DNA from: Stramenopiles sp. TOSAG23-2
Lineage: Eukaryota; Sar
Direction of reading: 5' to 3'
Assembly (NCBI GenBank): GCA_900128395.1
Contig: LT649483.1
Span: forward strand, 1 to 23,579
Length of the DNA: 23,579 nucleotides
Part shown: piece by piece, positions 369 to 23,579 of the stretch
Layout of the letters: each line of letters begins with the position of its first letter
Numbering within the stretch: the first letter of the stretch is position 1
Translations under genes and position numbers: made by a program
Notes under the pieces: generated by a model
The model's database searches: none
What the model was told of the DNA's origin: nothing
What the model saw: only the letters and a program-made list of their open reading frames with translations

Positions 369-582
369 TTCACTCCATATCCTTTCTCCATACCACCCCC
401 ATAAATCATATTCCAACAATTGCTTTTCTCATCACCACCTTGCTGTCCATATAATTTTGCAAAGGTCAATACCCATTCACTCCATATCCTTTCTCCATAC
501 CACCCCCATAAATCATATTCCAACAATTGCTTTTCTCATCACCACCTTGCTGTCCATATAATTTTGCAAAGGTCAATACCCA
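369..582. repeat. Perfect 107-bp tandem duplication
   Basis: Bases 369-475 are repeated exactly as 476-582. The second copy holds the C-terminal codons and stop of the hydrolase gene (minus strand); the first copy lies beyond the stop. The junction changes the last residues of the predicted protein. Confidence 0.95.
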
Positions 583-1761
583 CGGTGTTTCAACGCCAGT
601 TTTAAATGCGCAATTGTGACCGCTTAAATAAGTTGTTATGTATGTTAGCGAGGTTTTCAACAAGTATAATATATAGAAATAGAGGATATAATTATCATAC
701 TTACCTATCATCAAATGGTGGTCTCGCATCGTCTTTATCACATGCTTCACTTGAAAATTCAACAAATGTTGCAGGCTGATTTGTTGATGGTCGTGATTCA
801 AACGCACCATTAAAACATCCTAATTCATGTTTAGCTGTTAAAGGTGCCTGGAAGCGTAGAGTAATATGAACGATTGATGTGTTAGAGAAGATCCGTTTTT
901 TTGTTGGTTTTTAGGGGAATAGAATTGTATACCTACTGGCCAAAATGCTCCATCATTTGTTGCTGTAGTAAATAAAATTGGAAATTTCGTATTAACTTGT
1001 AATAAATCTGATTTTAACCAAGTTGACGGCCATGGTGCTGTGGACCGTAACGTAATATGAATGAATGGTATGTTAGAGGATATATTTTTTTTTTAGGATT
1101 AGGGAAATAGAATAATTTACGTACGTGGACCAAATGGACCACATATACCTGGATGTTGTGTAACAACTGCTTTAATCGATGTGGTATTGATAATTTTATT
1201 ATCTGCTTTTGATAATCTTAATCCAGCTTCAATAGAACATGTTGCACCCATCGAATGCCCAGCTACGATAATATTATCCAAATCTACAGTATTATACAGT
1301 AATGAATTTGGATCATCATTTGCTAATTTTAAATATGAAATACCATGTAAAATAAATTCCCCATTTGTATTTGTCGTTAGTGGATTGGTATCCTTCTTTG
1401 GACCTTTTACATATGGAAATACCACAACAAAACCATGGGAAGCATAATTCCGTAAATTGGGTAAATACATTTCAATCTTAGCGGTACTACCATGCATAAA
1501 TACTATTACAGGATATTTCTGTGGTTGTGAAAACGTTGGTACAAATGCTACTAATGGTATTTTGTCATATGTTGCATTTACTTGCAGAGGTATAAACGTA
1601 CCGCCAGGTGAACTAGTATTATATGGATAATGATTATCATTTTTTAAGGAGCAATCTTCAAATTTCGTCGACATTGTTGCAGCATTAGTCGTACATATTG
1701 TTGAACATAATAATGTTATTAATATGCTTGCAGATATGATAGATGCCTTCATCTTTTTCAA
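466..1761 (-). CDS. Secreted alpha/beta hydrolase (chlorophyllase/PET-hydrolase-like), 4 exons
   Basis: The model is complement(466..622, 705..847, 937..1037, 1125..1761), 345 aa. The three introns (82, 89 and 87 nt) have donors GTAAGT, GTAGGT and GTACGT, and all acceptors are AG. Residues 1-28 look like a signal peptide (basic start, hydrophobic core, then TTNAA). The alpha/beta-hydrolase fold shows VIVFMHG (oxyanion loop, about 85-91), the nucleophile elbow GHSMGA (Ser170), HPGICGPFGPPPWPSTW, the acid in TTATND (Asp241) and the base in SGHNC (His296). Cysteines in the last two exons could form disulfides. Frame continuity across every junction and the resulting family motifs support the splice model. 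Known relatives hydrolyse ester bonds; the substrate here cannot be told. The C-terminus (GVNGY then TGA) comes from a tandem-duplication junction; without the duplication it would end with a different tail of six residues. Confidence 0.88.
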
Positions 1762-2194
1762 TATATTATTATTATTATTTTTATTATTGTCTATTAAATT
1801 TTTGATTTAATTATTATATATCCAATGTTTGATTGAATTATAGATTTTTCAAGACATAGGAAAGGCAATTTAATATCTATATTTATTCTATTCGAACACC
1901 ACCCTACTAATTACTACTATTATTACGTTATTATTAATATAATGAAATTATATATAGACTTTTATAATATCATTTACACGCACACGTACAATCACCGATG
2001 ACCGCGGATTGGCAAAAACAAACAGAAAGATGAACCCAGTCTCGTTCCGCTCTCTTTGAAATCTCTCTCGCATATATATATAGCTATTAATCAACTCGTA
2101 AGCCTAACTCTTTTAAAACAATTCTCTATTGTCTTCGTCTTATATATCAACAACCCCGATTAAAAGATGATAATATACTGCGATATGATATTAA
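1762..2194. other. Intergenic region: hydrolase upstream, 3' flank of the next gene
   Basis: Both neighbours run on the minus strand, so this should hold the hydrolase promoter and the 3' end of the 1003-aa gene. It is AT-rich, with a less AT-rich patch near 1981-2060. I see no RNA gene. Confidence 0.4.
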
Positions 2195-5206: not shown

Positions 5207-5885
5207 GATTTTTGAATGTGTATGTGTTCTTTCTTTAATTTTATTGAGACTGTTATTCTTCTTTTGATTCTATGTATGTAATATTTATGTATGTAATATT
5301 TTTTTTGTGAGGTGTGCAAATAATATCGTTTGAAGGAGGGGTCGGTATTGGATATTGGATGGATAACGTAATAATAAAAACAAATTAATAATAATGATGA
5401 GGATGAAGATGTCAACCAAAAAAAAAAAAAATAATAATAATAATTTTTTCAATCTTCAAAAAAAAAAGCAACCTTTTCCACGTCTATACAAAAAGTATTC
5501 TAACGGTTGTTGGATATGTATCGCTACAAACTCTTACAAATCGTAATATATATGTATCGCATAAGCATTATGCATCACTATTAATTAATGAGGCTTTTTT
5601 CAACGAAATTCCAATTTTCGCAACGGTTTTGAAGAGGAGAGAGAGGCTTATTTCCCCATTGTTATACGTTGTAATTTATTATATAGGCACAGAGCATTGC
5701 TGTTTGTTCCCATAAAAGTGATGCGCCTACACAGCACTGGTTATTTGTCCATTACCGAATAATCAGGCTTGTGTACCTGCTAATCTAGAAGTCGCTAGGA
5801 AAATATCATATATAATTAAGTACAGTAATTAGTAGGCTCAATAAGAATCGTGTGTTAATTTATTTTCTTAACTTTTCCCTTTTCC

Positions 5886-6111
5886 CTTTTAGGGCATTGT
5901 TATACGTGTTATTTTATTTATTAATTGTGTATTGTCCTTAATTCTAGATTAATAGTTATCAATAATTCTAGAAAATATATGATGCTATGTAGTGCTACTT
6001 TTAGGGCATTGTTATACGTGTTATTTTATTTATTAATTGTGTATTGTCCTTAATTCTAGATTAATAGTTATCAATAATTCTAGAAAATATATGATGCTAT
6101 GTAGTGCTACT
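5886..6111. repeat. Perfect 112-bp tandem duplication
   Basis: Bases 5886-5997 recur at 5998-6109, with two further matching bases at the edge. Intergenic. The unit contains two TTCTAGA-like palindromic stretches. Confidence 0.95.
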
Positions 6112-6299
6112 GTTGTAGTAATCTGTATTTTTAGATTTTAGGATTTTACATGAGAGCGAATAATATGTTTTTGGTATTCTAATTTACCTTTAAGTATACC
6201 GTTTATCCTATGTTTGATAGGAGGTAAAAACTTTCATTTTCGGATTTTTTTCGACTTTTTTTAAAAAAACAAAAAAAAACAAAAATAAAATTGATGGAA

Positions 6300-6523
6300 G
6301 AGGAGATGGAAGAGGTAGATGGACGGACAAACCAAACAATTTTTATGATTATAGGTAATTTTCTACTCTTTGTGCATATTTGTTTCGATATTTTGACCCA
6401 GGGAATTGTTGGAGGAGATGGAAGAGGTAGATGGACGGACAAACCAAACAATTTTTATGATTATAGGTAATTTTCTACTCTTTGTGCATATTTGTTTCGA
6501 TATTTTGACCCAGGGAATTGTTG
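6300..6523. repeat. Perfect 112-bp tandem duplication
   Basis: Bases 6300-6411 are repeated exactly at 6412-6523. Intergenic, upstream of the 91-aa gene. The unit length equals that of the neighbouring duplication, but the sequence is unrelated. Confidence 0.95.
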
Positions 6524-6679
6524 TTTATATATAGTTGTAGAAAGTTTTTTTTTTTACGTGTAGTGATATATATGTTATTATTTGTGTATATTTTTAATTT
6601 GAAAGATTTGCATTATCACACACATTTTTAGTAATTTTTAGAGTGAAATTTAAGTAAATAATTGTTTTCATATTAACAA

Positions 6680-6955
6680 ATGAATGATACACAACAAAAA
6701 TTAGATCGTGCGGAACAATTAATCATACAAGTACTATTGAATATATCCAAATCAACAGAAATATTATCCAATAATTTAGATGAAGTAAATAGTAGCAATA
6801 ATAATAATAACATGAATAATAATGTAAATAATATTAATCAACTAACTTTACAAATTATCAATAATATGAATGAAGTTGGTACGATATTAAAAGAAAATAA
6901 ACAAGTATTGTTTCCATTAGAAGATTATACGAATAGAAAAAATGTGAAGAGTTAA
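6680..6955 (+). CDS. Small helical Asn-rich protein, weakly MED11-like
   Basis: A 91-aa protein from ATG at 6680 to TAA. Residues 1-38 form an amphipathic helix (KLDRAEQLIIQVLLNISKS). An Asn-rich linker follows (about 39-52), then a second helix (INQLTLQIINNMNEVGTIL) and a tail with FPLEDYTNR. Two short helices, an N-terminal LDxAE pattern and a late DY motif recall Mediator subunit 11. The resemblance is weak and other small coiled-coil subunits are possible. The last 109 bases, including the stop, lie in a tandem duplication whose second copy falls after the stop, so the protein is not altered. Short length and low complexity keep confidence moderate. Confidence 0.55.
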   Translation: MNDTQQKLDRAEQLIIQVLLNISKSTEILSNNLDEVNSSNNNNNMNNNVNNINQLTLQIINNMNEVGTILKENKQVLFPLEDYTNRKNVKS

Positions 6956-7066
6956 GTTTACAAATTATCAATAATATGAATGAAGTTGGTACGATATTAA
7001 AAGAAAATAAACAAGTATTGTTTCCATTAGAAGATTATACGAATAGAAAAAATGTGAAGAGTTAAG
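6847..7066. repeat. Perfect 110-bp tandem duplication of a gene's 3' end
   Basis: Bases 6847-6956 recur exactly at 6957-7066. The first copy is the last third of the 91-aa reading frame with its TAA; the second is an untranslated duplicate just downstream. Confidence 0.95.
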
Positions 7067-7250
7067 GAAGGTGTGTAATAATTTTAAAAAGTGTAATAAA
7101 AGTGTGTAAAAGTGTGTAATATATTTTGTTTTTACGTTTTTACTTTTTTTTTATTTCGTACACGATTCGTACGATACACAATGATACGAAGTTGTTGTGT
7201 TTTTTTAAATTTTTCTTTTGTTTTTTTTAAATTATGGTTTTCTTTATATT

Positions 7251-7360
7251 ATTGGTTAAAATCTAAGTTATAATAATTTTACACTTCTCGTGTTAAAGTA
7301 ATATGCTCAATACTCAATCGCAAGAATAATATGCTATCCTACTATAATAAAGCTCTCCTG
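7251..7360 (+). repeat. Dispersed intergenic repeat, copy 1
   Basis: It starts with ATTGGTTAAAATCTAAG and contains TAATATGCTCAATACTCAATC and CTATCCTACT. It aligns with the reverse complement of 13425-13528 over about 105 bases. Its first 27 bases also occur at 17784-17810. No reading frame, and no terminal repeats seen. Confidence 0.8.
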
Positions 7361-7402
7361 ACTTCGTCGCAAGCTCTCATGCGCCAGTTTTCTTTATATA
7401 TA

Positions 7403-7480
7403 TTACAAATTACTATTCGTAAACACGATGATACGAGTAATTGAAATTGTTCTGGTGACATAGTATTTTTACTATTACAT
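7403..7480 (-). pseudogene. Relic resembling the 3' end of the beta-helix gene
   Basis: The stretch aligns with 7701-7787, sharing CAAATTACTAT / CACGATGAT / TTGAAATTGTT / GACATAGTATTT blocks with several substitutions and small indels. On the minus strand one frame still reads TMSPEQFQLLV, against TMSTISMIIV in the neighbouring copy. It is probably a decayed fragment of another member of the same surface-protein family. Confidence 0.45.
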
Positions 7481-7730
7481 TATACCATTATACCACTCTT
7501 GCCTCTTGCCTCTTGTATATTCATAATTCACAAAAAAATCATGCCATTAGACCGTGGTGAACATTTTTCCTTTCACGGCGGTATTGCCAGGAATGCTGCA
7601 TTCTTAAAAAAACACATTAGCGCAATGCCTATTAAATATTATGGCAGACGGTGTAAATTTTTGGGCTTTGGGCTTCTCTCTTCCTTTTTTTATAAAAATT
7701 ATAAATTATAAATTACTATCATAAATACGA

Positions 7731-7965
7731 TGATCATTGAAATTGTTGACATAGTATTTACGATACTATTTGATAACTCCTCCTCTTCATCATTCCCATT
7801 GCCTGTGTTTGAATCTTTTTTTCTTGGCGAATTTGTAGTTGTCGTTGATCATTGAAATTGTTGACATAGTATTTACGATACTATTTGATAACTCCTCCTC
7901 CTCTTCATCATTCCCATCGGCTGTGTTTGAAGAGCGTGATTTTGGAGAACTTGTAGTTGTCGTTG
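7731..7965. repeat. Diverged tandem duplication (115-118 bp) at the 3' end of a gene
   Basis: Bases from 7731 match those from 7846, with a 3-base length difference (one fewer CTC) and several substitutions. Both copies encode SNSIVNTMSTISMI on the minus strand, but in different frames. The divergence shows this duplication is not a trivial overlap error. Confidence 0.85.
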
Positions 7966-9520
7966 CTGTGAATGTTGCCGCAACTGTTGTGATCCCTGCA
8001 GGAGGTGATGGTGCAGCCGATGTCGTATTACCTAATGATACTGGCGCAGCTGATGTAGTAGTTGTTACCGCTACTGGCGACGATGTTGTTATTACTCTTT
8101 TTGTTGTAGTACTACCTAACGATGTAGCCGTTGTAGTTGTTGGTGCAGCTGTTGTTGTTGTTGGTGCAGCTGTTGTAGTTGTTTGTTTTAATATACAAAC
8201 ACGATCAGATGTACGATTGCCATTAAATGAAATGTATTCATTATTATTGCATTGCTTCCAATTTGTACAATTCGTTTCATTAAATTGATTTAAAGGTTGA
8301 AATTGTCCTTGACTACATTGTACACAGTTAGCATCAAATGTTGCATGCCCGTTTATACGTTTATACCCAGCATTGCACTTAACATCTTGCCATAGTTGAC
8401 AAGCTGTACCATTAAATTGATTTAAAGGTTGAAATTGTCCTTGACTACATTGTACACAGTTAGCATCAAATGTTGCGTTCCCGTTTACACGTTTATACCC
8501 AGCATTGCACTTAACATCTTGCCATAGTTGACACGCTGTACCATTAAATTGACTTAAAGGTTGAAATTGTCCTTGATCGCATTGTACACATGTTGCATCA
8601 GATGTTGCATTGCCATTTATACGTTTGTATCCAGCATCACATTTTTGCCAAGGTTTGCATGTATTCCGAAGTGATGGGGCTGATATTGCTACTGAAACTA
8701 TATTCGTTGGATCTGCATTAAATAGGTTCGCCGAGCAATTCAAATTGCATAATACTCCTAATTTTGAATTACCATTGTTTACTGCATTGCATGTGCCAGT
8801 AAATGGTTCTTCCGTGCATAAATTATCTAAACATGTTTTCCATGTTGGTGTACCATCATCTTCATAAAAATTATCATTATTATTTGTATTGTTGAAATAT
8901 GTATTTATTAATGATATGGTTGGTGATTGATATGTAAATATTTCATCACCATTACTAGTTGCATCATTATTGATAAATGATGATTGACGGAGGGTGGTGA
9001 CTGTAGTGCTATCACCTTGTATATAGAGGCCGCCTCCATTATAAGCATCATTATTTGATATGATTGTATTCTTCATTGTTACATCACTGCCATATATACG
9101 CATACCACCACCAGTACCATACTGCCAACTAGCTTGATTATTGTCTATCGTAGTATTGTATATAGTACAAACAGCGCTATACATATAAATACCACCACCA
9201 CCACTACCAGTAGCTTCATTATTCTGAATAATACTATTATATGTATTCATAATCGCATTCTTATTCGTACTACTAGCACCTCTTGCATATATTCCACCAC
9301 CATTATATGCTTTATTATTAAATACAATAGATGAATACAAATTTAATTCACCACCGTTTGTAAAAATTAATATGGATCCACCATTAAAATCAGGATAACT
9401 ATAACTACTAACATCCCCACCAACTAATTTTAAATAACGTAATATTAATTTAGCATTTGCATTATTTAAATAAAAATGACGTTTATTTGTCGTTGCTGTT
9501 ATCGTAATTAAATTATTCAT
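7790..9520 (-). CDS. Surface-type protein: right-handed beta-helix plus 44-aa Cys-rich repeats
   Basis: 576 aa. Residues 1-220 are a run of beta-helix coils with NGGxIY/NNxA signatures (NNKAYNGGGIYA, NNEATGSGGGGIYM, NNDAYNGGGLYI), as in polymorphic-outer-membrane-like repeats. Residues about 230-430 are Cys-rich modules of 44 aa (CNAGYKR..GNAT..A.CVQC.QGQFQPL), TNFR/GCC2-like. A Thr/Ala/Pro-rich stalk follows, then an acidic patch and a basic tail. Such proteins are usually secreted or surface-anchored. No signal peptide is visible: the frame opens inside what looks like a helix coil, with a stop two codons upstream, so the true N-terminus is missing or lies in an unseen exon. The ATG overlaps the stop of the upstream gene (ATGA). 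The C-terminus is altered by a diverged duplication. Confidence 0.75.
   Translation of the reverse strand: MNNLITITATTNKRHFYLNNANAKLILRYLKLVGGDVSSYSYPDFNGGSILIFTNGGELNLYSSIVFNNKAYNGGGIYARGASSTNKNAIMNTYNSIIQNNEATGSGGGGIYMYSAVCTIYNTTIDNNQASWQYGTGGGMRIYGSDVTMKNTIISNNDAYNGGGLYIQGDSTTVTTLRQSSFINNDATSNGDEIFTYQSPTISLINTYFNNTNNNDNFYEDDGTPTWKTCLDNLCTEEPFTGTCNAVNNGNSKLGVLCNLNCSANLFNADPTNIVSVAISAPSLRNTCKPWQKCDAGYKRINGNATSDATCVQCDQGQFQPLSQFNGTACQLWQDVKCNAGYKRVNGNATFDANCVQCSQGQFQPLNQFNGTACQLWQDVKCNAGYKRINGHATFDANCVQCSQGQFQPLNQFNETNCTNWKQCNNNEYISFNGNRTSDRVCILKQTTTTAAPTTTTAAPTTTTATSLGSTTTKRVITTSSPVAVTTTTSAAPVSLGNTTSAAPSPPAGITTVAATFTATTTTSSPKSRSSNTADGNDEEEEELSNSIVNTMSTISMINDNYKFAKKKRFKHRQWE
8279..8670 (-). 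repeat. 132-bp (44-aa) coding repeat, about three copies
   Basis: Copies begin at 8279, 8411 and 8543 with a period of 132 bases, so the frame is kept. The first two are nearly identical (only a few substitutions); the third is more diverged. They encode the CNAGYKR / QGQFQPL / CQLW Cys-rich module. Confidence 0.9.
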
Positions 9521-10119
9521 GTACCTTCACCATTATGAATAATCTCATTGTTATTTGCTTCTTCGATTAATTTTGCTTGGCGTAATTCTTTCTCTTCTTT
9601 TTTCTTCTCTTCTTTTTCTTTAGTACCTTCACCATTATGAATAATCTCATTGTTATTTGCTTCTTCGATTAATTTTGCTTGGCGTAATTCTTTCTCTTCT
9701 TTTTTCTTCTCTTCTTTTTCTTTACGGTTTCGTTCTCTTAATAATTGTATTTGGAACATTCGTGCACGACGTGCTTGATCAATATGACGCCGTTCACGTG
9801 CACCTTTCACATTACGTACATGAAATTTAGCATATATTAAATCTGCTTTTAAATTTTGCGTATATGAACGAAATGTTGGTGGTAATCCACTTTTTCGTTT
9901 GTTGTTGTTGCTGTTGTTCTTGTTGTTGGTTATGATGGAATCATCTCTTGTTTTTCTGCTACTGATTTTACGATTCGATTTAAATGGTTTAATCGTTGAT
10001 GATGTAGTAGATGGACGTTTTGTTGTGATGGATCGTCGTAATGATGGTGTTGATTTGTAATTACGTTGATGTAATTTATTATTATTATTATTATTTGATA
10101 TTAAATGTCGTTTATTCAT
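9517..10119 (-). CDS. Basic coiled-coil protein of unknown function with a duplicated C-terminal 34-aa unit
   Basis: 200 aa from ATG at 10119. The N-terminal 75 residues are Asn/Ser/Thr/Arg-rich and disordered. Residues about 78-130 (GLPPTFRSYTQNLKADLIYA, then RERRHIDQARRARMFQIQLL) look conserved and helical. A highly charged Lys/Glu coiled coil follows. The last 68 residues are two identical 34-residue units (KEKEEKKKEEKELRQAKLIE to HNGEGT) from a perfect 102-bp in-frame duplication. The stop TGA overlaps the ATG of the beta-helix frame. I do not recognise the family; the composition suggests a cytoskeletal or nuclear protein. Confidence 0.65.
   Translation of the reverse strand: MNKRHLISNNNNNNKLHQRNYKSTPSLRRSITTKRPSTTSSTIKPFKSNRKISSRKTRDDSIITNNKNNSNNNKRKSGLPPTFRSYTQNLKADLIYAKFHVRNVKGARERRHIDQARRARMFQIQLLRERNRKEKEEKKKEEKELRQAKLIEEANNNEIIHNGEGTKEKEEKKKEEKELRQAKLIEEANNNEIIHNGEGT
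9521..9724. repeat. Perfect 102-bp in-frame tandem duplication
   Basis: Bases 9521-9622 are repeated exactly at 9623-9724. The length is 34 codons, so the C-terminus of the 200-aa protein is lengthened, not broken. The left edge coincides with the end of that gene and the first base of unrelated beta-helix sequence. Confidence 0.95.
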
Positions 10120-10231
10120 TTGTTTTTTTATATTTATTTATTATATATATATATATTGCAATGTAAATATATAGTGGTGGTGGTTTGCACAAAATCGAAA
10201 TATGTAAAAAGGTGGAGTGGATATGAAGAGA

Positions 10232-10512
10232 ATGGTTTTATATTCTAGTTTTGTATATATTTTTCCTGTTTACATCTTATATTTTTATATTTTTTTTTCC
10301 TTTTGTATTACATGTGTGAAATGTGTTCAAACGTGAATATATATGCATCAAATCAAACGGTAATCCCATTTATGGTTTTATATTCTAGTTTTGTATATAT
10401 TTTTCCTGTTTACATCTTATATTTTTATATTTTTTTTTCCTTTTGTATTACATGTGTGAAATGTGTTCAAACGTGAATATATATGCATCAAATCAAACGG
10501 TAATCCCATTTA
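10232..10512. repeat. Perfect 140-bp tandem duplication
   Basis: Bases 10232-10371 recur at 10372-10511, with one further matching base. Intergenic and AT-rich, with poly-T tracts. Confidence 0.95.
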
Positions 10513-10669
10513 AAATTACAAAGTCGTTTTTATATGTAGTTTTAAAAGAAAAAACATTGTTCCTGTGTAAACTTTCTAGAGAAACAGGTTATTAAATTGT
10601 AATTTGTTTTAATGAACAACACTCCTCTTCCCACATTTTAAAACCACAATCAAAATATGCTTTTCCCAA

Positions 10670-10891
10670 TTCTCTTTCACCCACTTTTACACTCCACTTC
10701 ACTCTTCCAAATCACACAATTTGTCACAATCAATCTACAAAGAGACTGATATATTTGTTAAATTCATATTCGATATTGTTTCTCTTTCACCCACTTTTAC
10801 ACTCCACTTCACTCTTCCAAATCACACAATTTGTCACAATCAATCTACAAAGAGACTGACATATACTAATTGAATTCATATTCGATATTGT
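10670..10891. repeat. Partly diverged tandem duplication of about 110 bp
   Basis: Bases 10670-10779 match 10780-10891. The first 79 or so bases are identical; the last 30 differ by several substitutions and a small indel before ending in the same TTCATATTCGATATTGT. This suggests an older event, or one partly homogenised. Confidence 0.9.
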
Positions 10892-10943
10892 ATATATTGC
10901 ATTTTTGATTCAACAGATGAATACCTCATGGCCACCACTACGT

Positions 10944-11789: not shown

Positions 11790-12568
11790 AAAAATGTTTT
11801 ATTTTTTTTACAATTGTTTTACAAAATTTACAAAATGTTTTTAAAATAATAAATGATGAAAGTTATTATACACAACAAAAAAAAAAATACTATTATATGT
11901 TACAAAAGAAAATAAAGAATATCTATAACTAAACACAAATATATAGGTGATAATGCAAATCGTTGATAATATGGATATATATATACTATGATGTATTCAA
12001 ACTTGTTTTCTTTTCGAAAATCAATTTTTTTCATTTTTCCACTTTACAATACTACTATATATGCACAATCTAAATCAAAAAACGAGTTTCTTTTTTTCTT
12101 CTTCGATAAATTTTCTTTTCGAAAATCAATTTTTTTCATTTTTCCACTTTACAATACTACTATATATGCACAATCTAAATCAAAAAACGAGTTTCTTTTT
12201 TTCTTCTTCGATAAAAAGGGGGGGGTCGCTGTTAATTAATAGTATTAGTATTAAAATTTACAGACTTTATTTACATGTAAACAGAAGATATACACGCATA
12301 CATTGTCTATATTGTTGTCATTTTTTCTACATATACGTGTTAACATTGCTAGACATTGAGAACAGAAAATCATTTGGTACGTATACTATAAGAAAAGTAA
12401 ACGTTGTTGTGTTTGATATTTTTTTTTGAAGAGTTATAATAAATTTAATTACTTCTTTTTCCGACCATTTTACTTCAGAAATTAACAGTTTTTTTAATAA
12501 TTAATAATATTACTATAGAAAAAAATACATAAAACGACAAATTTTTGTAAACAAAAAAGTATTCCATC
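11790..12568. other. Intergenic region between divergent genes
   Basis: It should contain promoters for the 281-aa gene (minus) and the secreted 12-Cys gene (plus). No gene seen. It carries a perfect 105-bp duplication, a G-run near 12219-12226, and very AT-rich flanks. Confidence 0.5.
12006..12215. repeat. Perfect 105-bp tandem duplication
   Basis: Bases 12006-12110 are repeated exactly at 12111-12215. Intergenic. Being a multiple of three, it creates an apparent repeated reading frame that I do not regard as coding. Confidence 0.95.
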
Positions 12569-13162
12569 ATGTATCAAAAACGTCTTTTCATTCTTAATAT
12601 CATTCTATCATCACTTATAATATGTATAATATCGATATTGTTAACAACTACTGATGCTATTAATGTAAATATAAAAAAACAGCAAAATACAAAATTATTA
12701 TTATCTAATAATCGACAAGGAAGTGTTGGAGGAGGAGAAGGGGAAAAAAAAGAAGACGAAGATAAAGAAAGTGATGATAAAGATAATATGAATGAGTCTC
12801 CTAGCACAGAAAATAGTAATGATAAAACATCGAAATTATGTGCATCAAGTTGTGTCGCGGAATGTAATTCAAAATGGTATACATTAACTTCGTGTTTTGA
12901 TACGAAATGGGGTTGCTTCCAAGGTTGTGAAAAAGGTTGTAAAGGTGATGTAGCATGTCCAAATTTATGTACAGCACAATTGGATTGGGAAAGATGCAAC
13001 AAAGAGTCATGTAAATTAGGTTGTTCCATTGGTTCATCGCTTCAATCACGTTATCCATCGAAAGTTGAGGAAAATGATGATGATGGAAATGATGATAGTA
13101 ATATAGATGATGATACTGAGGATGATGGTAATAAGAAGAAGGAAGAGACGACAAATAAATAA
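12569..13162 (+). CDS. Secreted Cys-rich protein with twelve cysteines
   Basis: 197 aa. Residues 1-30 are a signal peptide or anchor (basic start, long hydrophobic stretch LFILNIILSSLIICIISILL, then TTTDA). An acidic Gly/Glu/Asp/Lys linker follows to about residue 88. The domain at 91-152 has twelve Cys at 91, 95, 99, 109, 116, 120, 124, 130, 134, 143, 148 and 152, mostly in CxxxC pairs, as expected for small disulfide-stapled helices. The C-terminus is a very acidic Asp/Glu/Asn tail. No family recognised; it could be a lumenal or extracellular protein. Antisense frames over the same stretch are shadows of the repetitive coding sequence. Start choice is clear: this is the ATG directly before the signal peptide. 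Confidence 0.8.
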   Translation: MYQKRLFILNIILSSLIICIISILLTTTDAINVNIKKQQNTKLLLSNNRQGSVGGGEGEKKEDEDKESDDKDNMNESPSTENSNDKTSKLCASSCVAECNSKWYTLTSCFDTKWGCFQGCEKGCKGDVACPNLCTAQLDWERCNKESCKLGCSIGSSLQSRYPSKVEENDDDGNDDSNIDDDTEDDGNKKKEETTNK

Positions 13163-13602
13163 ATAATTAATTAAAATAGTATAGATTTTGAGGTCAAAGA
13201 CGACACCAATATAAAGAATGAATGACAAAGCAATAACATTTTTCCGACTCTCAGTCGGTGCCAGCCACTTGTATAAAAATTTTATATCAAAAAAAGAAAT
13301 AATATATAAATATAACTCGTCGTTTCCAAGTGAACCCGACGTCCAGCCCGTTCAACGAGTGCAGGAAGGATAGAAACCTACTCGTGCTTGTGGAGTATTA
13401 GTTTGCAGACGTGCATTAGAGCTTCACTGTTAGTAGGATATAGAATATTTATTCTCGAGATTGAGTATTGAGCATATTATTTACCATGAGAAGTAAAAAC
13501 TACTATATAACTTTAGATTTTAACCAATATTATATAAAAATATATTAATCTTGTCAACCTCCTTTTTAGGTTTCTCCCCTCTCTCCACAAAGCACACACG
13601 CA
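13163..13602. other. Intergenic region with a structured, less AT-rich island
   Basis: It lies between convergent genes. From about 13240 to 13450 the composition is clearly richer in G and C than its surroundings. It contains a perfect hairpin (CCGACT at 13244-13249 with AGTCGG at 13253-13258) and an ACTCGT/ACGAGT pair (13315-13320 and 13355-13360). A non-coding RNA is possible but I cannot assign a class. Confidence 0.4.
13425..13528 (-). repeat. Dispersed intergenic repeat, copy 2 (inverted)
   Basis: On the minus strand it begins ATTGGTTAAAATCTAAAG and shares TAATATGCTCAATACTCAATC and ATCCTACT, then AAGCTCT, with the copy at 7251-7360, with scattered changes. Confidence 0.8.
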
Positions 13603-13904
13603 ACTCAAAAACTTTCTAAACCAGCAAGACGTCTTAATTGTTCAAATGATAAGAAAAATGTTAAACTCCATGGTGCCATACGCATCCATGTAGGTAACCA
13701 ACCTTTATACAATGCACTGAACCCTTCATTTTTTACAGTTTTTTGAAAACAATACTCAAAAACTTTCTAAACCAGCAAGACGTCTTAATTGTTCAAATGA
13801 TAAGAAAAATGTTAAACTCCATGGTGCCATACGCATCCATGTAGGTAACCAACCTTTATACAATGCACTGAACCCTTCATTTTTTACAGTTTTTTGAAAA
13901 CAAT
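13603..13904. repeat. Perfect 151-bp tandem duplication of the last carrier exon
   Basis: Bases 13603-13753 are repeated exactly at 13754-13904. The right copy is most of the final exon of the UCP4-like gene with its stop; the left copy lies downstream of that stop, so the protein is unaffected. Confidence 0.95.
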
Positions 13905-14818
13905 CAATGGTACCATTATATAATGTTCCACGTCCCGTTGCACTGTGAGATGTATAATATTATAAGAGGTTAGTGTTATACATTTATGTGTATGTAAAGA
14001 AGATTTTATATATTTGTATATATATATATATATATATATATACGAAAAGAGATTTATACATACGGATCAAGTGGTTGATTCATAATACGTGTTTTCACAA
14101 CATCTGCAGGTGCACCTAATGTTGCAGCAACTAAACCTGCTACTGCACTACTTAAACCATGTAATATTGGACCATCTTGTACTTCAAATGGTTGACGTTG
14201 AAACATTTGTTTTGCTTGATCATATGTTGTTAAATCACCAATTTGTACTAACATCGCACGCTGTACAGCTGGACCCCAACCAGTATATAAACCACGTATA
14301 CCACCTGTACGATAAATACTTCGAAATGCATCTGGGAAACCACCTGGATAACGTGGTAATTTACCTTTTGCAATACGTTTACCTTCAATTTGCATTTGTA
14401 CTTTTACTAAATCAGTTGGTGTTGCGATAAATTGTCCAAAACCACCTGCTAACATACCAGCTGCAATACCTTTATATAATGAAAATGAACCATCTTGATT
14501 TTTTTGAAAAACATTTTCACGTAATATCTCATATGACGTAACACGTGTACCAGAATATACTAAATGACGAAGACATGCAGGTGCTAAACCACGATATAAT
14601 TGTAGAAAACCTTCTTCCCGTATAATACCAACCATGGTACCAACTAAACCACGTCGTATCATCGTTGTATTCGCATTAGTATTATTATTTGCAATTTGTA
14701 AACGTGTTTTTGTTATATCAAATGGATACGTAATAGATTCTGCTATACATGATGCCGCTGCCGATAAGATATAGGTCGATGCAAAGGATAAATTTGATTT
14801 ATCTGGTCCACCACCCAT
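13756..14818 (-). CDS. UCP4: Mitochondrial carrier, UCP4-like (SLC25 family), 2 exons
   Basis: The model is complement(13756..13942, 14064..14818), 313 aa. The 121-nt intron (GTATGT...CACAG) contains a long TA run and a CTAAC branch motif. Three tandem carrier repeats are visible, each with Px[DE]xx[KR]: PFDITKTR (Pro32), PTDLVKV (Pro134) and PADVVKTR (Pro237). Repeat halves end in GLY-type helices (LYRGLAPACLRH, LYTGWGPAVQRA, LYKGWLPTWMRM). The C-terminal exon (MRMAPWSLTFFLSFEQLRRL) closely follows uncoupling protein 4 rather than other SLC25 members. Such proteins sit in the inner mitochondrial membrane; UCP4 relatives are linked to proton leak or metabolite exchange. The length of about 310 aa is normal. 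The last exon is duplicated downstream. The subfamily call is less sure than the family call. Confidence 0.9.
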
Positions 14819-15086
14819 TGTAATTTATTTATTTTTTAATTTTATTTAAATTTCTTGAATTATTTATTGATTAATGATGATGTATGATGAAAAATTGATT
14901 TTGAAAAAAAATAAAATATTTTTTTTCCGACAATCTATTGAATTAAAGGAAGGGAATTAGATATATAAATGATGATGATGATCGATGTGCAAATTGATAT
15001 GATTCATAAAGAATTTGTATCTATCCCTTTTTCTACAAGTTTCTATTATTCTATATAGTACTATTATAATTATTATATTATTATTT

Positions 15087-15254
15087 TCAATAATCGCAAT
15101 TTCAACACTTAAACAAATTGTCTTCTCTTTAAGGATAATGCATGAGAGGGAAACATCGAAAAAAAACAGCTCAATAATCGCAATTTCAACACTTAAACAA
15201 ATTGTCTTCTCTTTAAGGATAATGCATGAGAGGGAAACATCGAAAAAAAACAGC
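15087..15254. repeat. Perfect 84-bp tandem duplication
   Basis: Bases 15087-15170 recur exactly at 15171-15254. Intergenic. Length divisible by three, which produces mirror-image repeated frames on both strands; I take neither as coding. Confidence 0.95.
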
Positions 15255-15581
15255 GGCTTTTCCATAGTGTATAGTGCCATATGCTTTCATAAACAGTGCA
15301 ACACAGAATTTCCTGAAACTATTTGGTTTATATTTTGAATTTCCTGATATTAGAATCTGGTATCAAGTAATTACAATCAACATAACATTATGATATCAAG
15401 ATTATGAAAACAAAAAGTATCCATAAGTTTTCCTGATACACGCATGTAGATTTCTTGGCACACAGTATACACAGGGCACTAAAATTTTAGTATAGGAATA
15501 GCATTATTACAGAGTTGCAGAGTAGGGTTCACATGGTCCAAAACTATGTTCCGAAATTCATCCAAATAGATATAAAATAAT

Positions 15582-15734
15582 ATAATATTTTGTATCCTTT
15601 ATGGAATAATTCGTTGGAGTTTGCACCTACCACGCACACAGCACTAATTTGGCAACAATAATATTTTGTATCCTTTATGGAATAATTCGTTGGAGTTTGC
15701 ACCTACCACGCACACAGCACTAATTTGGCAACAA
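15582..15734. repeat. Perfect 76-bp tandem duplication
   Basis: Bases 15582-15657 are repeated at 15658-15733, with one further matching base. Intergenic. Confidence 0.95.
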
Positions 15735-16110
15735 AAAATATTCGATGGAACAACAAAATCCAAAAGATCATCAAATAAATAAGATATATTAATGGATGAA
15801 TTGGGAGTGGGGTGGATATATATATATATATATATATTAAAACATATAACTGATAATACAATTTATACATATATATATATATATCGTATATCAATTGTAT
15901 ATTGTTATCGTTAGTTTGTTTTAATTTTAACAAAAAAAGTATTATTTTTTTATTTTTTTTTTACAAAATTAGAATCAAAATTTATACCACATCATTTTTA
16001 TTACATTATATATATACTGAGAGGATACACATAATATAATATATACATTGGAATAAACTTATTCATACATACTCACAACAAACAATAAGAATCTCGAGAA
16101 AAAAAACACA

Positions 16111-17596
16111 ATGCCTGGTCTTGGATTTACATTGATTACCGTTCCATCTGCTACATATTCTGCAGCAAAATTAAACAATGCGATAGGTAAATATACAATG
16201 GATATACGTGAATTTAATGTTCCACAACTACGTGTTGGTACATTAAATGTACTTATTTCATTATCAGATACGTTAACTAAATTAGATCTGTCATGCATGT
16301 CTGTTGTTGGCCAAGTGGAAAAATTAGGACGTGAAATACATTTGCAACGTTTCAATTCCTCCGCGGACGATTGGAGTGATATCGATGGTAAAGATAAAAT
16401 TGATTTTGTTAAAACTTTTGATTGGAAAGAAGTGAAATATCCAACTAGTCGTAGTTTAGAAGATTTAACCAAATTATTACAAATGAATGTAGGAAAAATG
16501 GAAGAAGAATTACGTAAATTTCAAGCATTATCCAACTAGTCGTAGTTTAGAAGATTTAACCAAATTATTACAAATGAATGTAGGAAAAATGGAAGAAGAA
16601 TTACGTAAATTTCAAGCATCCTATTCAGAAAAGAAACAATTGAAAATTAGTGCAGAACGTGGTACAAAAGTCAATTTAATGGCAATTGATCTGAATACGG
16701 TATTACGAATCAAAGGTGTTAGTTATGATGGTACACCAATTAAACCATTAATTGTTGAAGCAACAAATAAAGAATTGACAGTACAAAATTTTCAAGAGAC
16801 GAATTTTTTAAAAACAGTTGTTATTGTCGTACCATCAAATCAAGTGAAAGAATTTGAAAAAACATATCATACGTTAGATGATGGCACTAGTAGTGGTAAT
16901 AATAATAATAACAACAACGAGACGAAGAACAACAACAACAACAACGAAGATGAATCATCTATTTCCTTATTAGATGATGATGGTAACAATAGCAATAATA
17001 GTAATAATAGTAATAATAATGATTTAGGTGTTTCCCCTGTTGTACCAAATTCATTAGTACGTATAACTTCAGATAAAGAATGTGTTTTATATACAATAGT
17101 TGTATTAAAATCGCAACGTAAAGTATCACCAATTGGTGATATACAAGAATGGGAAATTGCGGATAGTTTTCGTACCGCATGTCGTAAAAAACGATATGTT
17201 TTACGTGATAAATTTAAATTGGATTTGGAAGCAACGAAAAAAGCAATGCATTACCAAGCACAATTGGATTCCGATTACAATTTATATGAAGGTAAAACAT
17301 TAGAATGGTGCAAAGTGCATTTTGGTGAAACAATGATAGCATGGGCACATGTGAAAGCTATACGTGTATTTATTGAAAGTGTTTTACGTTATGGTTTACC
17401 GCCTGATTTTGATTGCGTATTGATTGAACCGAAAGAGGGACGTGGTATTGATATACGTAGAGAATTAAATACATTGTATAAAGATTTATTAGCGGATGAT
17501 GATGGTATGTTTGGAGGTGGTACAGATGGTGGTGATGGTGGTGAAGGTGGTACCGAGGATGGTAACATTTATCCATATGTCAGTTTGGAAATGTAA
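16111..17596 (+). CDS. ATP6V1C: V-ATPase subunit C, frame broken by a 91-bp tandem duplication
   Basis: V-ATPase C is the peripheral-stalk subunit that links V1 to V0 and is involved in their reversible assembly. The first frame (16111-16539) encodes the N-terminal 139 residues and then runs into TAG; the second (ending 17596) carries the rest, through RKVSPIGDIQEWEIADSFR and FGETMIAWAHVKAIRVFIES to the family-typical ending YPYVSLEM. Bases 16438-16528 are repeated exactly at 16529-16619. As 91 is not a multiple of three, the frame is lost. Ignoring one copy gives a continuous 464-residue frame. The family is usually near 380 aa; the excess is an Asn/Asp-rich insert (about 16890-17023). The break could be an assembly error, a true pseudogenising event, or removed by splicing. 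Confidence 0.9.
16438..16619. repeat. Perfect 91-bp tandem duplication inside a conserved gene
   Basis: Bases 16438-16528 recur at 16529-16619. It is the only perfect duplication here that interrupts a conserved coding region internally. Confidence 0.97.
16890..17023 (+). repeat. Asn-coding trinucleotide tracts within V-ATPase subunit C
   Basis: Interrupted AAT/AAC/AGT runs encode poly-Asn and Asn-Ser stretches between two conserved strands of the subunit. Mixed codons show it is not a simple recent triplet expansion. Confidence 0.85.
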
Positions 17597-18946
17597 ATTA
17601 TATTTGTGTGCGTGTGTGGTTGTGTCCGGGTAAATATAGTGTTTGATACGACCATGCTTGAAACTAGGTGTTGGGTTTAATAGGTTATAAATTTACACGT
17701 CGTAAAAAATGTTATCATACGAGTCGTACGAGTTCGTAGGAATAATTAATGAAGAGATTATAAAATTATTTTGGTTAAAAGATATTGGTTAAAATCTAAG
17801 TTATAATAATAAAAGATATAAAATTTAAAAAAAATATTCGTATAAAATAAAAAATATTTTTTAGTATATAAAAAAAAATACCGAAGTGTAAATGGGATTT
17901 TAAAATTACCACACACTCTTCTTAAAAATTGTGCACTCTCTCCAAATTCCCCCCACATGCATCGAGATAGAATGCCTAGTTTTGATGTACAATCATCCAT
18001 TACAAATATTTCTTTGTGTATTGTTATACGGAATGGCTTTTCTGTTAAATCCAGCCTATTTGCATGAGACTAATGCTGTGTCTATGTATTTTAATATAAA
18101 ATAAGGTATTTTACAGAACAGGTTTTTGGCGTATATGTGCCTGTTAGTCCATGTATTTTAACATAAAATAAGGTATTTTACCGGCCAAGTTTTTGGCGTA
18201 TGGAAATTACATGGGCTTACCATTAAGAGTCGTCGCCTCTTTTCTCTTTGCATTGGTACGGATTATCATTTTTAGATATGTACTTAAAACGCTGTAATCG
18301 TATACAAAACCTTGTCAATCTCCCTATTAAAATACAATTAGCATGCACACAGGATTATAAAAACCTAAATCTGATCGAAATTTTGGATCCAAAAAACAAA
18401 CAAACGTAATTAGATTAACGATGAATTCCCCAAAAATATCGATTTATTATCTTAATATCCGTATAATATATTCCATATTAAAACTATTCATATATTAAAT
18501 TGTTTTTTCCCTTTATCCTCCAAAATTCCATATTATTTCATCCCCAATGAAAAAACTACCTGTTAAAACCACCCACCTGAATAATAAATGAAACAAACAA
18601 AAGCTAAGAATACATTTTGTCAGGAGATCATTTTATTAAGTACAAATTATATTCACAATTAACATACACACAACCTCTAATATCTTAGTATACGATAAAA
18701 TACACCTATCAACTTTCTTCCTATCAAATGACCTAGTATTTATACTTGAAAGCGATGTTAGAATACCAAAAACCAATTATATTTACATGAAAAATAATAA
18801 AAATGAATAAAAAATCATCAAAAAACCGAGGAAAAGTGGATAGAAAGTGTACACCAGAAAGACAGGTTGATTGAAAATGCAATTGTACTTTCCTCAGAAC
18901 ATTGTACAATTTATACCATTAACATCAGAAACAACGTTACTGATAT
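17597..18946. other. Long intergenic region without a supported gene
   Basis: It lies between two plus-strand genes. It holds a 27-base match to the dispersed repeat (17784-17810), a diverged direct repeat at 18080-18203, and a less AT-rich stretch at about 18010-18330. I find no tRNA, rRNA or reading frame worth calling. Confidence 0.45.
18080..18203. repeat. Diverged 67-bp direct repeat
   Basis: Bases from 18080 match those from 18147 with several substitutions. Shared blocks are ATGTATTTTAA, ATAAAATAAGGTATTTTAC and TTTTTGGCGTAT. An older duplication than the perfect ones. Confidence 0.8.
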
Positions 18947-19231
18947 ATATATATATATAAGATACATTTACAACAACTACAATATTCTATTTTTTTTTTT
19001 TATTAAACATCATCATTACATTTTTATAAAAAAAAATCATGGAAACAGCCAAAAAAAACAAACCGTCGAATAGTGCTTTTAAACAACAATATATATATAT
19101 AAGATACATTTACAACAACTACAATATTCTATTTTTTTTTTTTATTAAACATCATCATTACATTTTTATAAAAAAAAATCATGGAAACAGCCAAAAAAAA
19201 CAAACCGTCGAATAGTGCTTTTAAACAACAA
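18947..19231. repeat. Perfect 142-bp tandem duplication of the CDC50 5' end
   Basis: Bases 18947-19088 recur at 19089-19230, with one further matching base. The unit spans 5' flank, the start codon and all but the last 13 bases of exon 1. The upstream copy has an ATG at 19039 but no donor site. Confidence 0.95.
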
Positions 19232-20517
19232 AGATTAAAAGCAGTAAGTATACACATACGAATAAATACATAGTATACATTTCAAATATAAACTAACATA
19301 TACACACGCATATATAAACAGTGGCAACCAATATTAACACCAAATTGGGTTATCGGTACATTTATTGTAATAGGTATCTTATTTATACCATTAGGCATTG
19401 TATTATTAAGCGCTGCAGATTCAGTTATTGAATACCAAGCAGTTTATGAGTGAGTATATATATATATATATATACGACGATAATAATAATACAACAAACA
19501 TCTTTTTACTAACAATACAACCATCACACACACACATAACACAGTGGCGCATTAACAGAGGATCCCGCATATGTAGCCAACGCACAACATCAATCATCGC
19601 CAGTACCAGTTGGTACAAGTAAGACAATTACATTTGATATTAAAGAAAAAATGACTGGACCAGTTTACGTGTATTATGAACTTGATAATTTTTATCAAAA
19701 TCATAGACGTTATGTTAAAAGTAGAATGGATGCACAATTGCGTAATAAACTTTCAAAAACGACTCTTATCGATGATGAAAATGGTGATGGGATTGCAAGG
19801 GCAAAAGCAAAATTTGGTACGGATACCACAATTGCTGAATGGGCTAAAATATTTTCACGTTGTGAACCAATGATTGTACCACCAGGTTTAACGACAGATT
19901 GCAAATATGGTACAAATGGTACAAATGGACAGCCATGTAAAATCTTATGGCCATGTGGTTTAATTGCTGGTTCGTTTTTTAATGACGTTTTTAAATCGAA
20001 TCAAACATCATGGACGGAAAAAGGTATTGCATGGGAAAGCGATATTAAAAAGAAATTCATTAATCCAACGGGATGGAAAGATAAAATTGATAAAACTAGT
20101 ACATCGGTTTATCAATATTTACATCAACGTTATCCGAAATTTAATGAATTAACAGGTGGTTCATTGAAAGAAGAGGGTGTTGCAAATGAACATTTCATCG
20201 TATGGATGCGTACGGCTGGTTTGCCAACATTTCGTAAATTATATGCAATCGTTGAAGATGGTTTGGAAAAGGGCAAATTTGATATCGAAGTACATTCAAA
20301 TTTTAACGTGAATTCATTTGGTGGCAATAAAAAATTAATTGTTTCCACTGTTAGTTGGTTAGGTGGTAAAAATTATTTCTTAGGCGTTGCATATTTAGTA
20401 GTTGGTATTATCTCATTCTTATTAGCACTTGCATTTGGAATAAAACATAGAATGAATCCACGTAAATTAGGTGATTCCGAATATTTAGTATGGAGTGATA
20501 AAGATAAACAAAGTTAA
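19181..20517 (+). CDS. CDC50: CDC50/LEM3 family protein, P4-ATPase beta subunit, 3 exons
   Basis: The model is join(19181..19243, 19322..19449, 19545..20517), 387 aa. Introns of 78 nt (GTAAGT...ACAG) and 95 nt (GTGAGT...ACAG) both carry ACTAAC. CDC50 proteins partner P4-type lipid flippases for exit from the ER and activity. Family hallmarks in order: FKQQRLKAWQPILTP before TM1 (about 32-54), the lumenal PVYVYYELDNFYQNHRRYVK, a Cys-bearing central loop (Cys in SRCEP, TDCKY, QPCKI, WPCGL), NPTGW, FIVWMRTAGLPTFRKLY, SFGGNKKLIVSTVSWLGGKN and TM2 (FLGVAYLVVGIISFLLALAF). Length and topology are normal. The start is the second of two ATGs in a tandem-duplicated first exon; only this copy leads into a donor site. 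Confidence 0.93.
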
Positions 20518-21090
20518 ACATATAATGTATAATCAGGATGATATTATATACGTGTTATGTTTATTCAGTGTTTGTCTGGTATAACAAATGGAAAACGAGG
20601 AAGATTGTTTCCTATTAATATATATATTTCCTATTAATATATATTGTGTACGATAACTTCTTGAAATATGAGAGTTGAGAGATGAGATAAAATATTTGTG
20701 CGAGAAAATTAAAAATTAAAATCAGAAAGTAAAACAGAGGCGAGGGAATAAAATATACTCGAGTAAAAAAACAATTTTTTAATGTACGCGCCGAACAGTT
20801 GAGAGTTTTAGAAGAGAAAGAGTGTGAAAAAGCGGGCCATATATCGACTGTCGCCAGTCGCCAGTCGCCAGTGTGTGTATAAAAACTTTTTTTTTATTTA
20901 TTTTAAATCTGTGTTTAGCTTTACGTATGATATTTAAATTTGATTTTTACTCTTTAAATATGATGGATATATCATATGCATACCTTCGGTGCCACTTTTT
21001 TTATGATGCCATATATATATTTTAAACAAAATTCTTATATACGATATACGCGCGTAATATATACAAAACCACGCACACCCCTCGCTCGGA
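20518..21090. other. Convergent intergenic region
   Basis: It is the 3' flank of CDC50 (plus) and of the kinase gene (minus). No gene seen. It contains a short tandem TTTCCTATTAATATATAT repeat at about 20609-20645 and a 7-base tandem repeat. Confidence 0.5.
20850..20872. repeat. GTCGCCA heptamer repeated three times
   Basis: Three perfect copies of a GC-rich 7-base unit in otherwise AT-rich intergenic DNA; a short minisatellite. Confidence 0.9.
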
Positions 21091-23379
21091 TCAACCAACC
21101 TCCTCCATCAAATACAATAACAAACTATTTGCATTCTCACGTTTTGATGGATCTCGTTGCAACATACGTTCTAATAAATTTGTAATGATTGAACTATATC
21201 CTCTATTTCTCACTTCATCTAATACGTTTGATAATGATGTCATGGCAAAATCAGGTCTTTTTAACGAACACATTTCGTATAAAATACAGCCCAAGGACCA
21301 AATGTCTGCTGATTTTCCATAACCACCTTCAACAATTTCTGGTGCCATATAATGTGGTGTACCAACAATAGTATTTGCACTATGTGATAAAGCAGTAGCA
21401 ACGCCGAAATCACAAATTTTAATTAAATTTACATTATTACTTCCATTATTATTATTATTATTACTATTATTACTATCATCACATAATAATAAATTTGCTG
21501 GTTTCAAATCACGATGTACTAACCCATTGTTATGTATGACAATCAATCCATTTAATAATTGTTGGATTAAATTAATAATTTTCGTTTCATCTAAAAAGAA
21601 TGGGTTTGTATTTGCTTTTAATTTTGCAGCTAAATCACCACCTGATACATATTCCATTACTAAACATACGGATAAAATATTATTATCACGTATGTCTAAG
21701 AAAAAATCATGCACTTCAACAACATGTTCCGATTTGGATCTCAAATTCGACATTAATCTTGCCTCATCTAATGCCTCATTTGCTTGTTCAACACTTTCAC
21801 ATATAATACGTTTTAAAACATACAATTCATTGTTACGCTCGTCCATAACTAATGTTGTAGTTCCAAATGCACCTTTTCCTAATTCTCCTAATATTGTATA
21901 TGGTCGATCACCACCTAATGGTTCTTTTGAAGGGGATGTTGTTGCCGATGTAGTTGGTGATGAATGATGTGGTGATAAAAATGTTTGTTCTTGTTGTTGT
22001 TGTTTCATTTTATTATTAATTTGATTTTCATCATCATCCCCTAGCGTTGGTGGATTATAATGTTCTTGTAAAAATGGATTTGTTGCTGTTGTCTTATTAA
22101 TTTCATTTGTTTTAATGATTATGCTTTTATTTTCATTTTGATCATCGCTATCTGATGTTATTGTTGAAGCTGAAATAGCCGATGGTCTATTTCCAATAAA
22201 TAAATTATTATTATTCGTAGTACTACTATTACTACTAGTAGTAGTAGTAGTAATAGTAGTAGTAGTAGCATCATTTCCATTATCATCACTACTCATATCA
22301 CCCTCTGATTTACTAGTCACAATTATGTTGGGGGATCGTTTATGTGTTGGTTTTTCTGAATTCTCAACTACTACAATAACATCTTCAATTTCTTGATCTT
22401 GTACCAATAACTCCCCATCACTTTTTGATTTTATATTTAATGTTGAAGATGGTAATGGTGATGATGATGGTGATGACGTTGCTGCTGTTGTTGTTGTTGT
22501 TAATGTTGGTGCACTTTTTGTATGTTTTGTTGTTGTATTTGTTTTTTTCATTGTTGTATCATTATTAGTAGTAGTAGTAGTACTAGCAGTAGTAGTAATA
22601 TTATTATTATTATCATTATCATCGTCTAAACATGAACCTAATTCATCAAATGCACCAGCAACACTCCTATAATATGTAACCAGCCATAATATCATCTGTT
22701 TAAAACATGGTTGAAAAAATTCACCACATAATGCCAATGTAGCTGCGATGTCTTGAGCATTTCGTTCTGAAATAGTATCATATCGACGTGTTGCGTATTT
22801 CAATTTGATTTCGTTTCTAGCTATTTTCTTTTCATAATGTTTATGTGTAACAATTGGGAAAAGAGATGAATGCGATGATGATGGTAGTAAAGATCTCTTC
22901 AAGATAAACTTTTGTCTCATTCTTCTAACTTTTCTACGATAATATTCTTTCCTTTCGCGTTCTGCATTTATTTTCTTCAATGACTTTCTATTTATAAATG
23001 TAATTCTTTTCAACAGTTCATCCATACCACCGAAAAGGCTGTCTTGTTTTCCATCACCTTTGCTTTGGAAATGTTTTCCAATAAGACCAGTCAATCTATT
23101 TGACAATTCGATCAAAGCTGCGTTGGTATGATGCATCATATTATCTTCTAGCTCTGAATTGTTATTGTTGTTGTTGTTGTTACTATTTGTTTTGACATTC
23201 ACTTGTGCCATGATATTATTTAAATCAGTAATAGATGTACTAAGGTTACAAAGCGCATTATTAGATAATTTTAATGTTTCCAACCATGCTCTAGATGCAG
23301 CACGAACTGCACGTACACGAATTTCCACTGCATCTATATATGTTGTTTCAAAGATTGGTGTACTACTTTGTGCATACAT
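21091..23379 (-). CDS. BAR-domain protein fused to a NEK-like Ser/Thr kinase
   Basis: 762 aa, single exon. Residues about 14-252 look like a BAR domain: helix 1 (IDAVEIRVRAVRAASRAWLE), a basic middle helix (RERKEYYRRKVRRMRQK) and helix 3 (ARNEIKLKYATRRYDTISER, then FFQPCFKQMILWLVTYYRSV). Residues 255-485 are a Thr/Ser/Asn-rich linker with repeated KSAPT/KSDGE/KSEGD motifs. Residues about 492-760 are a complete kinase: GELGKGAFG (Gly498 start), VLKRI lysine, HRDLKPAN (His622), DFG (Asp657), GTPHYMAPE, DIWSLGCILYEM. An Asn-rich insert sits between the catalytic loop and DFG. BAR domains bind curved membranes; the kinase resembles the NEK group. All catalytic residues are present, so it should be active. 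The membrane-targeting role is inferred from the fold resemblance. Confidence 0.85.
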   Translation of the reverse strand: MYAQSSTPIFETTYIDAVEIRVRAVRAASRAWLETLKLSNNALCNLSTSITDLNNIMAQVNVKTNSNNNNNNNNSELEDNMMHHTNAALIELSNRLTGLIGKHFQSKGDGKQDSLFGGMDELLKRITFINRKSLKKINAERERKEYYRRKVRRMRQKFILKRSLLPSSSHSSLFPIVTHKHYEKKIARNEIKLKYATRRYDTISERNAQDIAATLALCGEFFQPCFKQMILWLVTYYRSVAGAFDELGSCLDDDNDNNNNITTTASTTTTTNNDTTMKKTNTTTKHTKSAPTLTTTTTAATSSPSSSPLPSSTLNIKSKSDGELLVQDQEIEDVIVVVENSEKPTHKRSPNIIVTSKSEGDMSSDDNGNDATTTTITTTTTSSNSSTTNNNNLFIGNRPSAISASTITSDSDDQNENKSIIIKTNEINKTTATNPFLQEHYNPPTLGDDDENQINNKMKQQQQEQTFLSPHHSSPTTSATTSPSKEPLGGDRPYTILGELGKGAFGTTTLVMDERNNELYVLKRIICESVEQANEALDEARLMSNLRSKSEHVVEVHDFFLDIRDNNILSVCLVMEYVSGGDLAAKLKANTNPFFLDETKIINLIQQLLNGLIVIHNNGLVHRDLKPANLLLCDDSNNSNNNNNNGSNNVNLIKICDFGVATALSHSANTIVGTPHYMAPEIVEGGYGKSADIWSLGCILYEMCSLKRPDFAMTSLSNVLDEVRNRGYSSIITNLLERMLQRDPSKRENANSLLLYLMEEVG

Positions 23380-23437
23380 GTTTTTCGTTTTTTTTGTTGT
23401 ATTTGTTTAGTTCTTAATTTATTAAAATGCTTGTTAA

Positions 23438-23527
23438 CAACAAATGTTATAATTGCACGATGTTTCTTACTTTATTAAAATGCAACAAATGTTATAATTG
23501 CACGATGTTTCTTACTTTATTAAAATG
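23438..23527. repeat. Perfect 45-bp tandem duplication
   Basis: Bases 23438-23482 recur at 23483-23527, just upstream of the kinase start codon (minus strand), so probably within its promoter or 5' UTR. Confidence 0.95.
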
Positions 23528-23573: not shown

Positions 23574-23579
23574 AACTAA

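Follow-up and report, generated by a model that had tools for sequence, protein, structure and literature searches.

Thirteen exact tandem duplications in one stramenopile contig are probably unmerged assembly overlaps

Does a contig crowded with perfect tandem duplications record a process in the genome, or the way in which the contig was put together? The question is raised by contig LT649483.1 of the Stramenopiles sp. TOSAG23-2 assembly GCA_900128395.1, whose whole stretch of 23,579 nt (hereafter the window; C250 in our numbering) contains thirteen tandem duplications, each exact and in two copies, whose units measure 45-151 bp. The assembly comprises 17,453,882 bases in 793 contigs and is eukaryotic, as judged from its genes and introns. 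The initial annotation had listed thirteen perfect head-to-tail duplications, every one of which is present at the size given, and had weighed two interpretations, unmerged assembly overlaps and genuine duplications sifted by selection; our analysis lends more support to the former and less to the latter. We put the probability that the thirteen duplications are unmerged contig overlaps, produced by assembly joins, at about 80%. The duplications are as follows.

369..582, unit 107 bp, contained in the final exon of a hydrolase-like gene on the minus strand; the relative P0050 is single-copy
5886..6111, unit 112 bp, with 2 nt of junction homology; no gene recognised
6300..6523, unit 112 bp; no gene recognised
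6847..7066, unit 110 bp, spanning the 3' end, with the stop codon, of a small open reading frame (ORF; ~6680-6955) on the plus strand
9521..9724, unit 102 bp, duplicated in frame where the minus-strand ORF 9517-10119 has its 3' end; the unit's low edge is a sequence discontinuity
10232..10512, unit 140 bp; no gene recognised
12006..12215, unit 105 bp; no gene recognised
13603..13904, unit 151 bp; the final codons and the stop of a minus-strand mitochondrial carrier gene lie in the second copy
15087..15254, unit 84 bp; no supported gene
15582..15734, unit 76 bp; no supported gene
16438..16619, unit 91 bp, frameshifting the V-ATPase subunit C gene (16111-17596, plus strand)
18947..19231, unit 142 bp, spanning the leader and the opening codons of a plus-strand CDC50/LEM3 gene, whose first exon was read by eye
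23438..23528, unit 45 bp, lying upstream of a gene for a protein kinase

At each of the thirteen sites the layout is flank, unit, unit, flank (P-U-U-S), with the two copies identical and in direct orientation, and no exact duplication with a period of 40-160 appeared in five order-3 Markov simulations of the window. The junctions show no more homology than chance would give, with 0, 1 and 2 nt at 8, 4 and 1 of the duplications, where random window positions predict 6.5, 3.7 and 1.7. The longest unit measures 151 bp, and the unit length is divisible by three in 4 of 13 cases. Two unit edges, at 6956 and 13754, lie 1-2 bp past stop codons of genes or ORFs, possibly by coincidence.

A fragment P+U set beside a fragment U+S would yield the P-U-U-S layout if the two were concatenated without merging the U that they have in common. 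Such fragments would end at U where a read that was chimeric, or discordant in some other way, made the assembly branch, and U would correspond to the reach of the next fragment back over the branch, up to about the length of a read. We infer the joining step, the branch points other than the two edges described below, and the program and data type. An origin in assembly joins is favoured because the copies are identical, the sizes do not exceed 151 bp, junction homology is at chance level and the duplications are concentrated in one contig, and also because relatives (98% and 65% identical) are single-copy at two sites and two edges fall at breaks. Pipelines used on related organisms do contain such a step: a study of MAST (marine stramenopile) genomes describes SPAdes contigs that were re-scaffolded with SSPACE and had their gaps filled with GapCloser (PMC5778133). 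Two further papers report false duplications beside gaps or with wrong gap filling in other assemblies (PMC9516828) and state that gap closers can get tandem copy number wrong (PMC10265787). A narrow literature search found no description of this very pattern.

To gauge the concentration in one contig, 17 other contigs (between C1 and C500) were sampled as 25 stretches of 10 kb, 242,513 N-free bases in all. Within this sample, three isolated duplications were exact, two-copy and comparable in size (C10 has units of 73 and 95 bp, C20 one of 100 bp), so that the rate is 0.55 per kb in the window vs 0.012 per kb in the sample, about 45-fold (binomial P ~9e-12, in a post hoc comparison for a window chosen for its richness). 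Left out of the three were two entries of one 84-bp multi-copy array (C1) and some exact repeats whose periods were 26, 27 and 30 bp. Also excluded were cases that were inexact or had short runs, at 128 and 89 bp on C1, 63, 66 and 36 bp on C500 and 70 bp (98.5%) on C120. Tandem duplications, both exact and diverged, thus do occur elsewhere in the assembly, at a low rate. The initial annotation had proposed a genome-wide count and held that either answer would matter for the whole genome; the count, run on this 242.5-kb sample, gave 3 isolated exact cases against 13 in the window, so that, as far as the sample reaches, the density is confined to this contig and a bearing on the whole genome is not supported.

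The genes that the units strike offer a comparison with independent sequence. In the V-ATPase subunit C gene, the 91-bp unit splits the reading into two frames. An environmental protein of 466 aa, P0001, is 100% identical before the unit and 98% identical after it and carries one copy; P0001 is the representative of 37 sequences, and the comparison was made with the representative alone. The best match bearing an organism name is P0004, a MAST-4 stramenopile protein, at 52%; judged from this gene, the source is probably a marine stramenopile close to MAST-4. A second V-ATPase C contig was sought in the same assembly and not found, and a pattern search in two further collections returned no relatives of P0001. 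We also considered intron gain by tandem duplication, the exact form of which would require AGGT within the unit; on reading the V-ATPase unit no AGGT was seen, and the idea was set aside. In the hydrolase-like gene, the unit at 369 lies in the last exon and the final few codons are replaced; the relative P0050 (65% identical) has a single copy over the unit and then continues a few residues further. Relatives are therefore single-copy at both of the sites compared (2 of 13).

Other genes are affected to differing degrees. ORF 9517-10119 has an in-frame copy followed by unrelated sequence. P0043, 95% identical to this ORF, has one unit copy and diverges at the unit edge, and P0044 and P0045 diverge elsewhere; we count all three as weak evidence because their contigs span just 538-644 bases. 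Stop codons lie within the duplicated units of the small ORF (110 bp) and the mitochondrial carrier gene (151 bp), and the other exons of CDC50, as read by eye, come after the second copy of the 142-bp unit. The earlier statement that a single duplication breaks a gene internally is thus too low a count, given that V-ATPase C is frameshifted, the hydrolase end is replaced and ORF 9517-10119 runs into unrelated sequence.

Two duplication edges coincide with breaks in the sequence.

7790..9520, minus strand, repeat-protein gene that starts mid-frame at a duplication edge, four paralogs reading on upstream in an open frame
23524..23579, minus strand, contig end, where a chimeric join has attached part of the V-ATPase unit in inverted orientation (16474-16529, 96%)

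At the first break, a search of the assembly with 9000-10250 gave 12 non-self matches: the end point is exactly 9520 in five, 9531 in one and 9505 in another, and the remaining five lie elsewhere. The family of gene 7790-9520 is multi-copy, with paralogs on at least C440, C518, C561 and C32, and in all four of the stretches read (4/4) these keep the upstream open frame. Since the paralogs extend past 9520, either sequence has been lost or unrelated sequence has been joined at the duplication edge 9520/9521. The gene has TNFR-like cysteine motifs, with a match below the Pfam cut-off; beta-helix is a label of our own for its product.

At the second break, the contig's final 56 bases consist of the inverted V-ATPase piece, which shares at least 3 nt with the preceding second copy of the 45-bp unit and leaves the native V-ATPase continuation exactly where the V-ATPase unit ends. 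The rough chance of one such edge coincidence, estimated post hoc from 13 unit ends in 23,579 positions, is ~0.0006. Because 23411-23433, just upstream of the duplication, resembles both the tail of the 45-bp unit and the start of the inverted piece, the exact join point is uncertain. Being inverted, ~7 kb apart and associated with short complementarity, the join has the characteristics of the commonest kind of chimera in multiple displacement amplification (MDA). This raises the possibility that the duplications themselves arose by template switching in whole-genome amplification and are present in amplified DNA, not in the cell. Published MAST genomes, probable relatives, come from amplified single cells (PMC8163842, PMC5269757, PMC5778133), but the thirteen joins differ from the one at the contig end in being direct, with junction homology at chance level. 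We therefore regard amplification as a decidedly unlikely source of the thirteen.

Around the remaining edges, searches with 5700-9200, 10200-16050 and 17650-23579 (40 of 301, 272 and 126 candidates scored) found no contig that ends at a duplication edge; the same searches found dispersed repeats. A 94% match on C121 to ~6974-7161 spans a boundary between unit and flank, which marks that boundary as native. Inverted copies at contig ends were also looked for as a possible general sign of amplification, and of nine other contigs tested at the 5' end, one (C150) has such a copy: there, positions 1-62 match at 98%, in inverted orientation, a stretch ~5.5 kb further into the contig, which may itself be a repeat. 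The 5' end of the window contig (1-95) matches C32 and C23 at 99% and others at 83-98%, and so lies in a repeat. A short dispersed repeat (~100-240 bp) occupies 7244-7386 and ~13316-13558, with at least dozens of matches in the assembly at 78-99% on both strands; its two window copies are mutually inverted and 81% identical.

Alongside the thirteen exact duplications stands one near-exact pair, which the initial list, complete for the exact ones, had overlooked.

10670-10779 / 10780-10891, near-exact tandem duplication, copies of 110 and 112 bp, differences confined to a cluster of ~15 bp

Such a cluster is what two alleles might show, and allelic overlap, in which adjoining fragments from two haplotypes or cells stayed unmerged because they differed, could account for this pair. 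For the set as a whole this explanation is very improbable, because the 13 other pairs are identical, so that differences within the unit could not have blocked merging. The only other inexact pairs of a similar kind seen in the window are repeats within gene 7790-9520, with a period of 132 and neighbouring copies 92-94% identical in the best part (83% at a spacing of 118); these diverged repeats belong to the repeat protein.

The initial annotation had seen a selective bias in the placement of the units relative to genes. We counted a unit as coding if it lay entirely within an exon, using the copy with the stronger overlap and exon limits set by hand. With homology-backed exons, 3 of the 13 units are wholly coding, 2 partly coding and 8 outside; with long ORFs added, the figures are 3, 3 and 7. 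For homology-backed genes, the 3 wholly coding units compare with 4.5-5.1 expected (P 0.29-0.19, the range reflecting the null used). Units outside coding sequence give P 0.43-0.35 with homology-backed genes and 0.10-0.05 with long ORFs added. When the low-coordinate copy alone is classified, 10 and 9 units fall outside (P 0.09 and 0.008), a scheme that by construction places the carrier and CDC50 units outside genes. The G+C content is 27-29% in noncoding vs 33-34% in coding sequence; because noncoding DNA is G+C-poor and more assembly breaks are expected there, a deficit in genes could reflect the sites of breaks.

Several observations nonetheless weigh against an origin in assembly joins. 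With long ORFs counted as genes, the 3 wholly coding units compare with 6.9-7.7 expected (P 0.028-0.010). The duplications at V-ATPase C and at CDC50 have outer flanks that are true neighbours, as would equally be expected from real duplication. P0001 could derive from other individuals of a polymorphic population. Breaks appear at 2 edges, and the other 11 exact duplications are without a demonstrated break; there is no N anywhere in the window. Some of the window units may also be real, given the low-rate tandem duplications elsewhere in the assembly. The alternative that these points invite is that of real recent tandem duplications in a chromosome region, generated by staggered-break end-joining or by something comparable that works without microhomology, with selection then removing some of them. 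The coding deficit with long ORFs, the true neighbours at two genes, the several units at gene ends or beyond recognised genes, and the exact and diverged duplications found elsewhere would all suit such a history, but the deficit is not significant with homology-backed genes alone, and the ~45-fold excess of this contig over the sample is hard to reconcile with it. It would, moreover, leave a conserved V-ATPase C gene broken, with no second copy found in the assembly, despite single-copy relatives at both sites compared, and would have two edges coincide with unrelated joins. We consider real duplication unlikely, and quite improbable its more specific form, a recent local burst of 45-151 bp microhomology-free tandem duplications in this region of a marine stramenopile genome, by a mechanism in which, for example, widely staggered nicks are filled in and end-joined, with deletion or inverted insertion in places, much like a replication-based rearrangement burst.

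If the duplications are artefacts of assembly joins, the gene models here include a V-ATPase C frameshift that is not real, along with a truncated gene and a chimeric contig end, and counts of tandem duplications taken from this assembly would mislead. Draft genomes could then be checked for exact two-copy repeats, up to about the read length, that cluster in a few contigs. If the duplications are real, they would represent a striking local duplication process.

Among known systems, microhomology-mediated tandem duplications are likewise short, direct and of similar size. They generally need several bases of junction homology, whereas here the junctions have just 0-2 nt, not above chance. For MDA chimeras, PMC1855051 reports 406 of 475 as inverted, 337 of these less than 10 kb apart; direct chimeras less than 10 kb apart number 11 of 475, and ~91% of those have complementary bases. 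Set against these figures, the V-ATPase piece at the contig end is alike in orientation, distance and short shared bases, whereas the thirteen tandem duplications differ, all being direct and having 0-2 nt of homology without excess over chance. False segmental duplications created by mis-assembly (PMC2864568) resemble the present case in that an assembler makes second copies that look like recent duplications; there the copies come from divergent haplotypes, while here 13 of 14 pairs are identical. Homotype false duplications (PMC9516828) likewise comprise second copies without allelic differences, uncollapsed sequence and sometimes wrong gap filling, and also include unsupported filled joins. 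There they are recognised by read depth, gaps and discordant pairs, whereas the units here are very short and exact, with no gap of N between copies or elsewhere in the window. The resemblance to homotype false duplications lies in the absence of allelic differences in 13 of the 14 pairs and in the absence of the second copy from independent sequence at 2 of 13 sites, those covered.

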